Below, in pieces: positions 8,765 through 22,370 of a stretch of 41,420 bases of DNA. Made by a program: the position numbers and the translations under genes. The notes below the pieces were generated by a model. It made no database searches. It saw nothing but the letters and a program-made list of their open reading frames with translations, and was not told the origin of the DNA. Within the stretch, counting starts at the first letter, position 1, and the number at the start of each line of letters is the position of its first letter. Origin of the DNA: a virus; the IMG/VR virus record IMGVR_UViG_3300032435_000023, positions 1-41,420 of that record. One strand, given 5' to 3'.

Positions 8765-9054
8765 TTGTGAAACCCTCTAGTAAAATCCATGGCTCTGGCC
8801 ATGGTTATGGCCGTACCCATGGCCATGAATCCGGCGATGGCTATAGTGATGGCACTGGTGATGGCATTGGGGATGGCTATGGCAAAGGATCTGGAGATGG
8901 TTCAGATTCAGGCTATGGCTTCGGCTCGGGCTCTGGCTTCGGCTCGGGCTCTGGCTCTGACAATGGCTCTGGCGATGGATATGGCACTGGATTGGATTCT
9001 GGCTATGGCTTTGGCTCCGGCTATGGCTACGACAGTGGAGATGGCGATGGTTAA
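8761..9054 (+). CDS. Gly/Asp/Ser/Tyr-rich repetitive protein, first of a tandem pair
   Basis: 97 residues composed almost only of Gly alternating with Ser, Asp, Tyr, Phe or His (for example DGYGKGSGDGSDSGYGFG). The start overlaps the DUF6948-like stop by ATGA. Such proteins recur in phage early regions; the alternating Gly-X pattern suggests an extended or disordered, acidic chain and no known activity. The frame stops at TAA 9052-9054, but the same composition resumes one frame over in the gene starting 9047. Confidence 0.65.
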   Translation: MIVKPSSKIHGSGHGYGRTHGHESGDGYSDGTGDGIGDGYGKGSGDGSDSGYGFGSGSGFGSGSGSDNGSGDGYGTGLDSGYGFGSGYGYDSGDGDG

Positions 9055-9289
9055 TGATGATGAATATGGCTCTGGCAGTGGCGATGGCTTTGGATCTGGC
9101 TATGGATTTGGATCTGGGGGCGGGGATGCTCATGGCTATGGCGATGGGGATGGCACAGGATTTGGCTCTGGGGATGGATTTGGCTCTGGCTATGTAGATG
9201 GCTCCGGCTATGGCTCCGGCTCGGGCGATAGATATGGCTATGGTTGTGGCTATGGTTGTGGCTCTGGCTCTGGTGGCGGCGATGGTTAG
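8791..9289 (+). repeat. Low-complexity hexanucleotide tract (GGCTCT/GGCTAT/GGCGAT)
   Basis: About 500 bp built from degenerate GGC-TNT or GGN-GAT six-base units encoding Gly-X pairs. The strong codon bias leaves several frames open on both strands, which produces spurious Met/Ala- and Ser/His/Gln-rich frames. Confidence 0.85.
9047..9289 (+). CDS. Gly/Asp/Ser/Tyr-rich repetitive protein, second of a tandem pair
   Basis: 80 residues from ATG 9047 (MVNDDEYGSGSGDGFGSGYG), in the +1 frame relative to its neighbour and overlapping its end by 8 bases. GGAG at 9037-9040 lies 6 bases before the ATG, so it can start on its own. Composition equals the first gene, plus GYGCGYGCG near the end with two Cys. 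It is either a duplicated gene or the back half of one gene split by a frameshift. No function known. Confidence 0.6.
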   Translation: MVNDDEYGSGSGDGFGSGYGFGSGGGDAHGYGDGDGTGFGSGDGFGSGYVDGSGYGSGSGDRYGYGCGYGCGSGSGGGDG

Positions 9290-10129: not shown

Positions 10130-10281
10130 TGGAAAATAAAAAAGAGTATAAAGAAACATGGTTTATTGTGCCAAGTTATATCGCAGACTTGCCGGGCATG
10201 ACGCTAGAGCGTTTAAAAAAATATGAATACGACTATCGAAAGTCTATTGAAAAACCTGTTGATAAGGATCTACAAAAATGA
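10129..10281 (+). CDS. Small charged protein before replication initiator
   Basis: 50 residues, ATG 10129 to TGA 10279-10281, overlapping the previous gene by 1 base and the initiator gene by ATGA. Aromatic- and charge-rich (KKEYKETWFIVPSYIADLPG, then LERLKKYEYDYRKSIEK). No recognised family. Coupling to the initiator start suggests coordinated translation. Confidence 0.65.
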   Translation: MENKKEYKETWFIVPSYIADLPGMTLERLKKYEYDYRKSIEKPVDKDLQK

Positions 10282-11075
10282 GCGTAGACGCAACCAGATC
10301 AACATGGTTATTAACAAAAAAACAAGTGACACCAACCCAGAAATTTATTTTATTGGCTTTAGCAGATCGTGCTGGAGAAGATGGTGAATGCTGGCCTTCG
10401 GTTAAACGGATTGTGACAGATACCGGATACGACCGAGAAACCGTCATAGCTAATCGCCTTCAATTAATTGAAATGGGATTAATAGAATTAACAGGCCGAA
10501 TGTTCGGAAGAACAAAGCAAATACCAGAAATGAAATTAATTTACATAAATCGTAGAGAGGGAAAATCCACAAATGAATCTCAGGAAGAAACAAACAGTCG
10601 GCAAACACCTACTGTTACAAATTTAAACAGTCGGCAAACACCTACCGTTAAACAGTCGGCAATTGCCGATACGGAACCTAAAAGTCTTTTGAACCTAAAA
10701 GATACTGCTGCTGGCGCAGCTTTTTCAGCAGCATCACTTCCCCTTTCCCCTATAACCCCTGTAGAGTTAATCGCGGTTTATCACGAGGTGTTGCCGGACA
10801 ATCCGCGTGTATTAATAAATCCGGTAACGGGCGCGATTGAGTCGAAGGTTAAGGAAGCTATTCGTGAATTTAAAAAGTATTGGTTCCGTAGGGCGGGGTC
10901 TCCAATAACCATTGATGATTTTAAAACTTACATGATGGATTTACGGAATAACTGTAGTCGGTTTACGCTTGATAGCTACATAGGGAAAGGAGGTAATGAA
11001 CAAAAAAACGGGCTGATTACATTTTTAAAGTGGGAAACAGTGGAAAACGTGAACGCTAACAAGAATCTTTATTAA
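10278..11075 (+). CDS. O-like replication initiation protein with winged helix-turn-helix
   Basis: 265 residues. The N-terminal 90 form a helix-turn-helix_36-type domain (TPTQKFILLALADRAGEDGE, then CWPSVKRIVTDTGYDRETVI) with aromatic-rich WPS motif, as in phage replication proteins. A Ser/Thr/Gln linker (about 100-150) follows, whose DNA contains iterated sites. The C-terminal 100 residues (VELIAVYHEVLPDNPRV, FLKWETVENVN) match the helicase-loader-type tail often found in such proteins. It directly precedes the DnaB-type helicase. Expected role: bind the origin inside its own gene and load the helicase. Confidence 0.85.
   Translation: MSVDATRSTWLLTKKQVTPTQKFILLALADRAGEDGECWPSVKRIVTDTGYDRETVIANRLQLIEMGLIELTGRMFGRTKQIPEMKLIYINRREGKSTNESQEETNSRQTPTVTNLNSRQTPTVKQSAIADTEPKSLLNLKDTAAGAAFSAASLPLSPITPVELIAVYHEVLPDNPRVLINPVTGAIESKVKEAIREFKKYWFRRAGSPITIDDFKTYMMDLRNNCSRFTLDSYIGKGGNEQKNGLITFLKWETVENVNANKNLY
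10592..10668 (+). repeat. Iteron-like repeats inside the initiator gene (candidate origin)
   Basis: AAACAGTCGGCAA occurs at 10592, 10625 and 10650. Copies 1 and 2 extend identically through ACACCTAC and end in TGTTA or CGTTA, and each is an imperfect inverted repeat (AACAGT with ACTGTT). The third copy is in another reading frame and ends in the perfect palindrome CGGCAATTGCCG. This mirrors the lambda arrangement of iterons inside gene O. Confidence 0.65.
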
Positions 11076-11096: not shown

Positions 11097-12419
11097 ATGA
11101 CAAATCCAAAATATAACCCCGAAGCCGAACTCGGGGTTATCAGTGCGCTTATTAACGATGGGGATTACTCGTCTTTTACAGTACAAAAATCAATGCTTAG
11201 ATTAGAAGAGCGGTTTTTTTATGTGCCTGTCCATCGTGAACTGTTTAAGATTATCAAAAAATGCTTTGATGAGAAACATGTTTTCGATATGTCAGCGATG
11301 AGTGACATTCTACAATCAAGCAGCAATGATGTTTTTATGACGATGTTGAATGGCTTGAATAAAACCTATTATTCAACGTCACGGCTTGAACGTGAAATAA
11401 CAACGCTTGAACAAGCCGCTCAGATGCGCCAACAACTTAAAACCATGCAAAGCATCATTTTAGATTGTCATGACGAACCTTTGACAAATCTTGCGTGCGA
11501 TATCCTGCACCACGGTATACAAAAACTGGGGGGCATTAAATTGAACGCGATGAATGACGGGGCAGACTATGAGCAAATAGCAGAAAGCCATCTTAATGGC
11601 GAATTTCTGGACATGGAGCCGGTAGAAATTGGTATAGATGGGTTTGGTGAGTTAAGAAACTGCTCGCTAGTAACAATTGCAGGGGCTTCTGGCGTCGGTA
11701 AGACCTATTTTGGCGTATATCTCATGAATCAGGTGGGAATGTACCAGCCTGACAAACAAGCCTTGTTTTTCAGCCTTGAAATGGCTCGTAATGAAATTTG
11801 GGAAAGGCATTTATCAATTTTGGCGAATAAAGCGTTTGATGAGCTTACAAAATCAGAATTGACGGAGGCAATCGGGCTTTCATTGGCTGTTGATTATCGC
11901 GTTTACGATGAGCCGCGCATTGATATTGATTACATTGAAACTATGTGTCGATTGCAAGCTATGCGAAAACCGATTTCGGTTATTGTGGTCGATTATATCG
12001 GGTTGGTTACGTCAAAGCAGAAACACGATCGCGAAGATTTAAGGGTATCAGATATAACGCAACGGTTGGCGGCTTTAGCTATGAACTTGAAATGTATCGT
12101 TATCGGACTAACACAAGTTAATCGTGATCCGTCCAAACGCGAAAAGTCAGACCGATGCCCATACCCGAACGATGTAGCTGATTCCGTGGGTAGCGTGCGG
12201 TCTTCAAGTATTTGGATAGGAATAGACCGACCCGAATTATATTCAGATGAATTGCAAGATAAAAACCTGTTTGTGGCAAAATGCAGGAAAAACAGGCGCG
12301 GCGATAACTTTGAAGTGTATTTTGATTTCAATGGCGGCAGGTTTTTACCTCGTGATAAACCAAACTGGCAAAGTACGCCAAAACCTATGGCAAATAGATA
12401 TAAATTTAAAGAGGATTAA
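11097..12419 (+). CDS. DnaB-type replicative helicase
   Basis: 440 residues of the SF4 helicase family, the hexameric 5'-3' helicase that opens the replication fork. The N-terminal domain starts NPEAELGVISALI, as in DnaB. The motor has Walker A GASGVGKT (about 196-203), the SLEM motif, Walker B VIVVDYIGL (about 294-302), the LTQVNRD sensor loop, and a final NRRGDNFEVYFDF stretch. It follows the initiator gene by 21 bases; the large repeat-rich gap lies downstream. No primase is encoded nearby, so host DnaG is probably recruited. Confidence 0.93.
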   Translation: MTNPKYNPEAELGVISALINDGDYSSFTVQKSMLRLEERFFYVPVHRELFKIIKKCFDEKHVFDMSAMSDILQSSSNDVFMTMLNGLNKTYYSTSRLEREITTLEQAAQMRQQLKTMQSIILDCHDEPLTNLACDILHHGIQKLGGIKLNAMNDGADYEQIAESHLNGEFLDMEPVEIGIDGFGELRNCSLVTIAGASGVGKTYFGVYLMNQVGMYQPDKQALFFSLEMARNEIWERHLSILANKAFDELTKSELTEAIGLSLAVDYRVYDEPRIDIDYIETMCRLQAMRKPISVIVVDYIGLVTSKQKHDREDLRVSDITQRLAALAMNLKCIVIGLTQVNRDPSKREKSDRCPYPNDVADSVGSVRSSSIWIGIDRPELYSDELQDKNLFVAKCRKNRRGDNFEVYFDFNGGRFLPRDKPNWQSTPKPMANRYKFKED

Positions 12420-12592
12420 AAAAGGAACAGGAGCAAAACGCAGGCATTATTATCTACCCATATCATGTTCATTTAACATGTGACACCTCATGCAGGTGTC
12501 ACGGGTGTCACTTTAGGTGTCACATCAATACCATCAAGGGTTTTATGCGTGTTTATGACACCTATGACACCTAAATATATATTTTTTAATAA

Positions 12593-12610
12593 GTATGTAG
12601 TTATACATAC
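12593..12610. repeat. Perfect seven-base inverted repeat
   Basis: GTATGTA (12593-12599), loop GTTA, TACATAC (12604-12610). It lies in the AT-rich stretch between the two heptamer groups, where an unwinding element or a protein site would be expected in an origin. Confidence 0.55.
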
Positions 12611-12705
12611 AGTACAGAGTAGCGAAACAGCTTAGAAGGATAACTAGGGTGTTATATAGATATGGGTGTCATGGGTGTCACAATTTTTATTTTTTAAAAA
12701 GTTAG

Positions 12706-12746
12706 TATCGCCTACAACTCAATGACATCAAGGGTTGTAGGCGATA
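12706..12746. repeat. Perfect 13-bp inverted repeat, 15-base loop
   Basis: TATCGCCTACAAC (12706-12718) and GTTGTAGGCGATA (12734-12746) are perfect reverse complements. The loop contains CATCAAGGG, also found at 12532-12540 and followed there too by TT. No T run follows on either strand, so it is a poor intrinsic terminator; a cruciform, origin hairpin or RNA structure is more likely. Confidence 0.65.
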
Positions 12747-12818
12747 ATTTGGTTTAAATAAAATGTGACACCCCCTATTTGAATTTTTAGAGTTAAACGA
12801 CAAAGAGGATAAAGTTCA

Positions 12819-13094: not shown

Positions 13095-13679
13095 ATGGGT
13101 TTTCCTGTTTACTCTGTGAAATCATGTGCGGAATTAATTAAGTATAGTCAAAACTCGCGTACTCATTCTTCTGATCAAATTAATCAAATAAAACGTTCTA
13201 TTGAGCAATTTGGATTTACAAACCCTTTATTGATTGACGAAGATAACTTGATTATAGCAGGGCACGGTCGATTAGAGGCAGCTTTATTATTGAATATGGA
13301 TGATATTCCTTGCGTGATTATTAATGGCTTAACTGAGGCTCAAAAGCGCGCTTATATTATTGCTGATAATCAGCTCGCGTTAAATGCGGGATGGAATGAA
13401 GATCTTCTTAAACTCGAATTGACGTTTTTAGAAGACGAAAATTTTGATTTATCTTTTCTTGGTTTTGATGAAAATGATTTAGAGACGTTATTGAATGATG
13501 TGGAGCTGGATTACTCAGACAAAAACAAGGAGCTAAATACCAATGATTTCAGTGATGACATTATGGAACTAAAATTTAAATTTTCGCAAGAAAAATATGA
13601 GCTTGTAGTTGAAAAGTTGCGCAATATAAACTCATCGAAAGAAATAGCTTTATTGCAGTTGTTAAATAATGAGCTATAA
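13095..13679 (+). CDS. ParB/Sulfiredoxin-fold protein paired with methyltransferase
   Basis: 194 residues. The N-terminal 100 carry a ParB-like nuclease domain: NSRTHSSDQINQIKRSIEQF, TNPLLIDEDN, then IIAGHGRLEAALLLN with the GHGR motif. ITEAQ-type EAQKRAYIIADNQLALNAGW follows, as in the ParB domains fused to phage DNA methyltransferases. Here the methylase part is absent, and a separate C5 methyltransferase starts 11 bases inside the 3' end. The acidic C-terminus is unmatched. Likely role: DNA contact or specificity partner of the methylase; nuclease activity is not assured. Confidence 0.85.
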   Translation: MGFPVYSVKSCAELIKYSQNSRTHSSDQINQIKRSIEQFGFTNPLLIDEDNLIIAGHGRLEAALLLNMDDIPCVIINGLTEAQKRAYIIADNQLALNAGWNEDLLKLELTFLEDENFDLSFLGFDENDLETLLNDVELDYSDKNKELNTNDFSDDIMELKFKFSQEKYELVVEKLRNINSSKEIALLQLLNNEL

Positions 13680-21410: not shown

Positions 21411-21444
21411 GCCTAACTTACTTTGAACGAGAAGTTAGGCTTTT
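21411..21444 (+). terminator. Rho-independent terminator
   Basis: GCCTAACTT (21411-21419) pairs perfectly with AAGTTAGGC (21432-21440), loop 12, followed by TTTTG. It comes only about 12 bases after the expected start of the promoter at 21387, so it could also act as an attenuator or end a very short RNA. Confidence 0.7.
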
Positions 21445-21503
21445 GTACCGAATCAGGATACAGGCGTATCGGCCAACAACGAACGACACGGAGCAATCAT
21501 ACC

Positions 21504-22370
21504 ATGAGTGACCATACATTTAACCCTTTCATAGCAGAAAAATACGGAATAAATGAAGCTATATTTTTAAATACGATTATTTTCTGGACTAGAACTAACG
21601 CGGCTAAAAAGAAAAACTTTCATGAGGATCGTTATTGGACATACGGCACACCAGAGTTTTACGCTGCATATTTCCCATATTTTAAACCAAGATTAATAAA
21701 GGATATTATAGCAAGTTGCATCAAACAAAATGCACTAATTAAAGGCAACTTTAATAAAAAGAGATACGATAGAACATCGTGGTATTCATTGTCAGATAAT
21801 ATACTTTTTGATTTAAATTTAGACATAGCATGCCTACAACCCAATGCCAGAACCATTGTACGTAATTCGTATAATGGATTAGACGTAATCCGTACAATGG
21901 ATCGTACGGATTACGTACCACCTATACCAGATACTTATACAGATACTGAAACACAAACTAATACTACTGATGAAAATTTGAATAGTAGTAGTGTGGTTAT
22001 TTCAACGTCAACAGACAAAACCCTTTTATCCGCAAAGCTTGATTCAGACACAAGAACCGATCAACAGTTTTTGATGGCCTGTAAATTTCACCTAGAAATT
22101 CAAGGCACAAAGAAATACACGAATGCACAGAAGATTAACGGGCTAATAAAGATTATCAAAAAGGGCTTTGAAACGCCGATTGGTGCTAAAGGTCAACCCC
22201 CTAACCCCGTTAATAGTGGCAAGGTCAACACCAAGTTCAACCCCGAAGACCAAGACCGCGCTCACGAAAAAAGATTAGAAGAGTACAAAGCGGCCGTAAA
22301 CACAAGAAACCCCCGCAAAAAAATAATGTGTTATAATGAGCAAGTCACTAAATCTAGGGGCGTAACATGA
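21504..22370 (+). CDS. Winged-helix replication-type protein in an accessory insert
   Basis: 288 residues from ATG 21504; longer frames begin in the terminator. The N-terminal 110 (NPFIAEKYGINEAIFLNTII, FWTRTNAAKKKNFHEDRYWT, RLIKDIIASCIKQNALIKGN, RYDRTSWYSL) form the winged-helix domain seen in DnaD/O-like phage replication proteins. A Thr/Asp/Asn-rich linker with TDTETQTNTTDENLN follows, then a basic C-terminus (IKIIKKGFETPIG). It is out of place among head genes and is the second such protein in this genome. DNA-binding is likely; whether it acts in replication or as a regulator is unknown. Confidence 0.75.
   Translation: MSDHTFNPFIAEKYGINEAIFLNTIIFWTRTNAAKKKNFHEDRYWTYGTPEFYAAYFPYFKPRLIKDIIASCIKQNALIKGNFNKKRYDRTSWYSLSDNILFDLNLDIACLQPNARTIVRNSYNGLDVIRTMDRTDYVPPIPDTYTDTETQTNTTDENLNSSSVVISTSTDKTLLSAKLDSDTRTDQQFLMACKFHLEIQGTKKYTNAQKINGLIKIIKKGFETPIGAKGQPPNPVNSGKVNTKFNPEDQDRAHEKRLEEYKAAVNTRNPRKKIMCYNEQVTKSRGVT

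Follow-up and report, generated by a model that had tools for sequence, protein, structure and literature searches.

A gene for a DnaB-type replicative helicase in the 41,420-bp virus contig studied here (the window) is followed by an array of nine short repeats. The flanks of this array are mosaic: an O-like gene and the DnaB gene lie on its left, and genes for a ParB-like protein and a cytosine methyltransferase follow on its right. The features of the locus are as follows.

10278–11075, plus strand: gene for an O-like replication initiator with an N-terminal HTH_36 domain (domain matches)
10592–10669, plus strand: three copies of ACAGTCGGCAA inside the O-like gene, with 33/25-bp spacing; putative origin of the O/DnaB module
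11097–12419, plus strand: gene for the DnaB-type replicative helicase, 440 aa (DnaB_C, 5e-31; phrog_19, 2.4e-58)
12406–12483, plus strand: frame of 25 codons, LKRIKKGTGAKRRHYYLPISCSFNM and a stop, resembling a vapE C-terminus and possibly a remnant of one (local score 46 against the vapE tails of L130 and L227)
12481–12772, both strands in the order +---++--+: array of nine exact TGACACC/GGTGTCA heptamers (motif positions, shuffles)
12481–12522, unstranded: outer left cluster of one plus and three minus heptamers (motif positions)
12556–12571, plus strand: inner left tandem pair TGACACCTATGACACC, 9-bp period (motif positions)
12572–12664, unstranded: AT-rich core, 93 bp, 73% AT (composition); putative melting region
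12665–12680, minus strand: inner right tandem pair, in the opposite orientation to the left one (motif positions)
12706–12746, unstranded: perfect 13-bp dyad TATCGCCTACAAC/GTTGTAGGCGATA, the left arm of which aligns with dyads of the VapE-linked arrays of L130 and L227
12766–12772, plus strand: outer right heptamer (motif positions)
13095–13679, plus strand: ParB-like gene, with homologues after the helicase or array in L192, L193 (VapE), L305 (VapE) and L286 (DUF5906-like)

The initial annotation had described nine exact heptamers in 292 bp, in both orientations, and the positions are exactly as claimed: 12481+, 12495-, 12504-, 12516-, 12556+, 12565+, 12665-, 12674- and 12766+. Three pairs (12495/12504, 12556/12565 and 12665/12674) keep the strict 9-bp period noted there, and the region does follow the DnaB-like gene, which ends at 12419. 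The density is also beyond chance, as had been supposed, since no heptamer of any kind exceeded five copies in 2000 dinucleotide shuffles of positions 12420–12818. The genome-wide count proposed as a check gave 12 copies of TGACACC in the whole 41.4-kb window against 2.67 expected, and the three copies outside the array are singletons (10327, 29959 and 33836). Comparable heptamer density elsewhere in the window is limited to a coding tandem repeat at about 8.85–9.25 kb; there, at 8850–9254, CATAGCC is repeated inside a low-complexity coding frame (MALAMVMAVPMAMN...). Two labels had to be narrowed. The region is gene-free in that it contains no open reading frame of at least 60 aa, except for one overlap at 12483, and "AT-rich" applies to the 93-bp core (73% AT against 61% for the whole window) but not to the whole span. 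GC skew, suggested as a further check, shows no inflection at the array. Searches of the window gave no support for reading the array region as integrase arm sites, a tRNA, an RNA family or a promoter.

Ten loci (L317–L326), 46–71% identical to the DnaB protein across a 119-aa fragment, are the closest relatives found for it. Nine of them extend far enough past the DnaB gene, and none of these carries an array 3′ of it; L318 is left out of this count because its sequence stops too soon after the gene to judge. With eleven more distant loci included, the count is 0 of 20. Short direct repeats 15–25 bp apart do occur inside the O-like gene of six of the ten relatives (L317, L319–L323), and the repeats in the O-like gene of the window occupy the same in-gene position. 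The ParB-like gene has no matching homologue in the DnaB relatives. Judged from these sequences, relatives of the neighbouring DnaB/O-like module do not have the TGACACC array as its cognate origin, and replication of the present phage most likely starts within the O-like gene. This arrangement resembles the lambda-type origin inside the O gene, for which the repeats at 10592–10669 lie at the expected place. The TGACACC array differs in lying outside the O-like gene, about 1.4 kb downstream of it. The two sets of repeats had been described as distinct; they do differ in sequence (ACAGTCGGCAAACACCTAC...), but the 7-mer ACACCTA is common to both.

Opposed short repeats around an AT-rich core are also the layout of VapE-type and SaPI-like 3′ origins. 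In SaPIbov1, two oppositely oriented sets of repeats reportedly flank an AT-rich region, according to a paper from 2012. The sections on SaPIs in PMC7581432 (citing Ubeda et al. 2007) locate the origins immediately after the rep helicase gene and describe short iterons to which Rep binds through its C-terminal domain. In this group, the helicase itself is the initiator. Both the SaPI origin and the window array have short repeats immediately past the 3′ end of a helicase gene. They differ in the neighbouring protein, which is the origin-binding Rep in SaPIs and a DnaB-type helicase in the window, and in the element, since SaPIs are satellites whereas the window is a phage-sized genome. A second parallel is the putative origin of SCCmec Cch2, where a D5-type helicase binds, in vitro, repeats that lie downstream of its own gene (PMC7581432). 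The placement downstream of a helicase gene is the same, but this site consists of three 5-nt iterons in a 23-bp direct-repeat site and belongs to another element with another helicase.

Arrays of this general kind are frequent behind VapE genes. Of 38 closer VapE loci, 19 have one heptamer at least five times in the 450 bp that follow the gene on its 3′ side; stretches inside the gene reach this number in 0 of 38 cases, and stretches lying further downstream in 4 of 157. Different loci have different heptamers (ACTGTCA, GGGGTCA, AGGGTAG, ACAGGGT, CTGACAG, AGGGCAC, AGGTGTC and others), and the layout recurs with similar spacings: inverted tandem pairs about an AT-rich centre, plus outer sites. 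Some VapE phages, for example nine named lytic ones, are without such an array. The helicase module also varies among phages with a TerL about 59–64% identical to that of the window. L305 has VapE and a ATGACACT array followed by a ParB-like gene of the window's kind, L288 has VapE and a TGACACTTG array that is weaker than the others by heptamer count, and L286 has a DUF5906-like helicase with TTAGAGAA repeats, again followed by a ParB-like gene of this kind. Two terminase relatives, L293 (DUF5906) and L276 (DnaB), have no array behind the helicase. From such comparisons it appears that the terminase-related phages exchange their helicase/origin module. In the E. coli phage vB_EcoM-611R5 (L311:5452-5714), another phage of this TerL group, a GGTGACG array lies directly behind an unannotated DUF5906/Prim-Pol protein, with spacings that form a near-perfect palindrome (11, 22, 44, 7, 88, 7, 45, 22, 11). 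At L297:8076-8347, the heptamer ACCCCGT occurs eleven times, on both strands, just before the gene ahead of the terminase, and the helicase gene is far off.

The heptamer TGACACC itself recurs widely. We scanned IMG/VR for the 9-bp heptamer pair, and IMG/VR together with GTDB genomes for a mixed-orientation triple. These scans returned arrays of up to 11 exact copies in phages and prophage-like loci of 33–72% GC. Their surroundings form two main groups, behind a primase/helicase gene or inside an O-like HTH_36 gene. Non-coding arrays lie directly behind VapE (L018, L078, L123/L131/L134, L125/L128, L127 and L130), DUF5906 (L007, L124, L129), DUF3987 (L106/L009, L175), DUF927 (L178) and Prim-Pol/AAA (L138) genes; arrays inside O-like HTH_36 genes are found in L069 and L098 and, by similarity, in L095 and L137. 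The heptamer does not identify its binder, because TGACACC arrays occur 3′ of DUF5906 and DUF3987 helicases and inside O-like genes as well. A control motif composed of the same letters reversed, CCACAGT, also returned origin-like arrays, mostly from one phage family (L141–L161; inverted sites around a TATATA centre, for example at L143:1488-1622). These arrays probably represent another origin with the same overall layout. We can therefore exclude TGACACC as a universal motif; architecture and place are diagnostic, and the heptamer alone is not. When annotated phages were searched at the DNA level for the array, only chance-level matches came up. Two further loci depart from the main groups. 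On L370, a contig of L072, the TGACACC array lies about 6 kb from vapE with minus-strand genes between, and at L058:1457-1761 TGACACC sites lie on either side of what looks like a tRNA 3′ end, next to a tyrosine integrase, where they are likely arm sites of an attP.

The window array is most similar to the arrays linked to VapE. In an nhmmer comparison of the array region with all fetched loci, the eight distinct best loci all come from VapE-bearing records (L127 at 2e-6, L123, L134, L131, L072, L130, L018 and L192); TGACACC arrays without VapE are absent among the matches listed. The L130 match begins within the vapE tail. With the heptamers masked, similarity in the expected orientation persists for L227 (z 3.7), L130 (z 2.9) and L018 (z 2.2), the only 3 of 14 arrays at p ≤ 0.025 in plus orientation, so that the likeness outside the heptamers is modest and confined to these three. 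We regard the masked flanks as moderate evidence because most arrays failed and a non-VapE array, L009, matched on the opposite (minus) strand (z 3.3). The right-hand dyad is common to the window, L130 and L227 (left arms CCTACAACTCAAT, CCTATAACCCAAT and CTTATAACCCAAT, respectively), and the core stretch TTTAATAA is, judged by eye, common to the window and L130/L227. Set beside the VapE-linked arrays of L130, L227, L123, L127, L018 and L305, the window array has the heptamer or a near motif, 9-bp tandem pairs, inverted arms, an AT-rich core, a right dyad and, as in some of them, a ParB-like neighbour.

What differs is the gene to the left. The VapE-linked arrays have a vapE gene, whereas the window has only the tail-like frame. 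VapE, DUF5906 and DUF3987 genes were sought in the window and none was found, and the array does not lie directly 3′ of a cognate initiator-helicase gene, its neighbour being DnaB_C. The tail-like frame ends with a TGA stop that is the start of the first heptamer, and LKRIKKGTGAKRRHYYLPISCSFNM resembles the C-termini of the VapE proteins of L130 (KGIGKLRRSYWMPI) and L227 (KGVGSTAQKRKYYMP). Among 12000 segments of 79 bp drawn at random from the window, none scored as high as its 46 (null maximum 44), and the best tail score at the same place in the 20 DnaB relatives was 37. An HMM profile of vapE C-termini did not detect the frame in the window. Since the frame is short, was picked by eye before scoring and exceeds the null maximum by two points, and since this profile was negative, we treat it as supporting and not as decisive.

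The VapE-like array, the vapE-tail-like frame and a ParB-like gene syntenic with VapE phages suggest that a vapE module was replaced. We consider it probable that the array is a VapE-type iteron origin orphaned by a swap of the replication module. The ancestral cassette would have consisted of vapE and its origin, and vapE would have been lost to an incoming cassette of O-like and DnaB genes, which brought its own origin repeats within the O-like gene. The crossover would have fallen within about the last 25 codons of vapE, leaving the vapE tail and the origin as an orphan. By analogy with the SaPIs, an active VapE-type initiator would attach to the opposed pairs flanking the AT-rich core and melt this core, and we infer that the array once worked in this way. 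That all nine copies are intact speaks for a swap not long ago or for an array still in use. The array may now be silent, or it may serve secondarily or in trans; the O-like protein might use it, or initiators from other phages sharing the cell might. That it has been kept for such a benefit, bound by VapE-type initiators from phages and satellites that co-infect or are resident, and so giving a second, borrowed start or titrating the initiator of a competitor, seems to us distinctly unlikely. The candidate origin proposed in the initial annotation is supported by architecture, place and homologous phage arrays, but to judge from relatives of the neighbouring DnaB/O-like module it is not the origin that goes with this module.

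The array could also be the working origin of the present module, with the O-like HTH protein binding TGACACC, melting the core and loading DnaB. The intact heptamers, the position right behind the O and DnaB genes, the ACACCTA shared with the O-gene repeats and the TGACACC arrays inside the HTH_36 O-like genes of L069, L098, L095 and L137 are all consistent with this. We nevertheless think it unlikely, given the lack of a 3′ array in the 20 DnaB relatives and the placement of their repeats within the O-like gene, where the window phage has such repeats too. Furthermore, the recognition-helix pattern S.R...R, seen by eye in O-like proteins with in-gene TGACACC, is missing from the window protein. 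A cognate VapE-type gene might instead reside in an unsequenced part of the genome, in which case the array would not be orphaned; the record is linear and may be incomplete, and the L072 genome offers an example of an array remote from vapE. Against this, the vapE-like tail sits directly at the array. Genes for replication, packaging, the head, the tail and an endolysin are also present in the 41.4 kb of the window, and most of the larger related contigs measure 39–47 kb, so that little seems to be missing; the chance of a hidden vapE is therefore slim.

The initial annotation had also considered a regulatory hub. The array region is non-coding and precedes an operon, and a promoter-like match at 12555–12583 overlaps the inner pair, as might be expected of an operator cluster for a repressor or activator of the ParB-like and methyltransferase genes. 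Promoter-like matches are fewer than in shuffled sequence, however (2 against 5.0), and homologous arrays follow helicase genes regardless of the next gene, which makes such a role very improbable. Least plausible of all, despite the precedent of L058, are arm-type integrase sites of an attP: the window contains neither a tyrosine integrase nor a tRNA, and both the architecture and the homologues are those of the VapE-linked arrays.

This kind of origin is itself already known. In the open-licence literature that we searched, we found no description of its wide occurrence, with heptamers that diverge, behind VapE-type genes or of an orphan beside DnaB. Our observations point to a widespread and fast-diverging class of phage origins behind VapE/D5-type helicases, and they provide an easy recipe for predicting the origins of phages with such helicases. 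An orphaned VapE-type origin in the window would be a natural case of an origin parted from its initiator, with bearing on origin–initiator compatibility and on the exchange of replication modules. Elsewhere in the window, a 315-aa gene among the head genes (21423–22370) is similar to replication-initiation and DnaD-like loader families. Contig L294, otherwise about 98% identical to the window, differs from it at about 21580–22226, in the middle of this gene.
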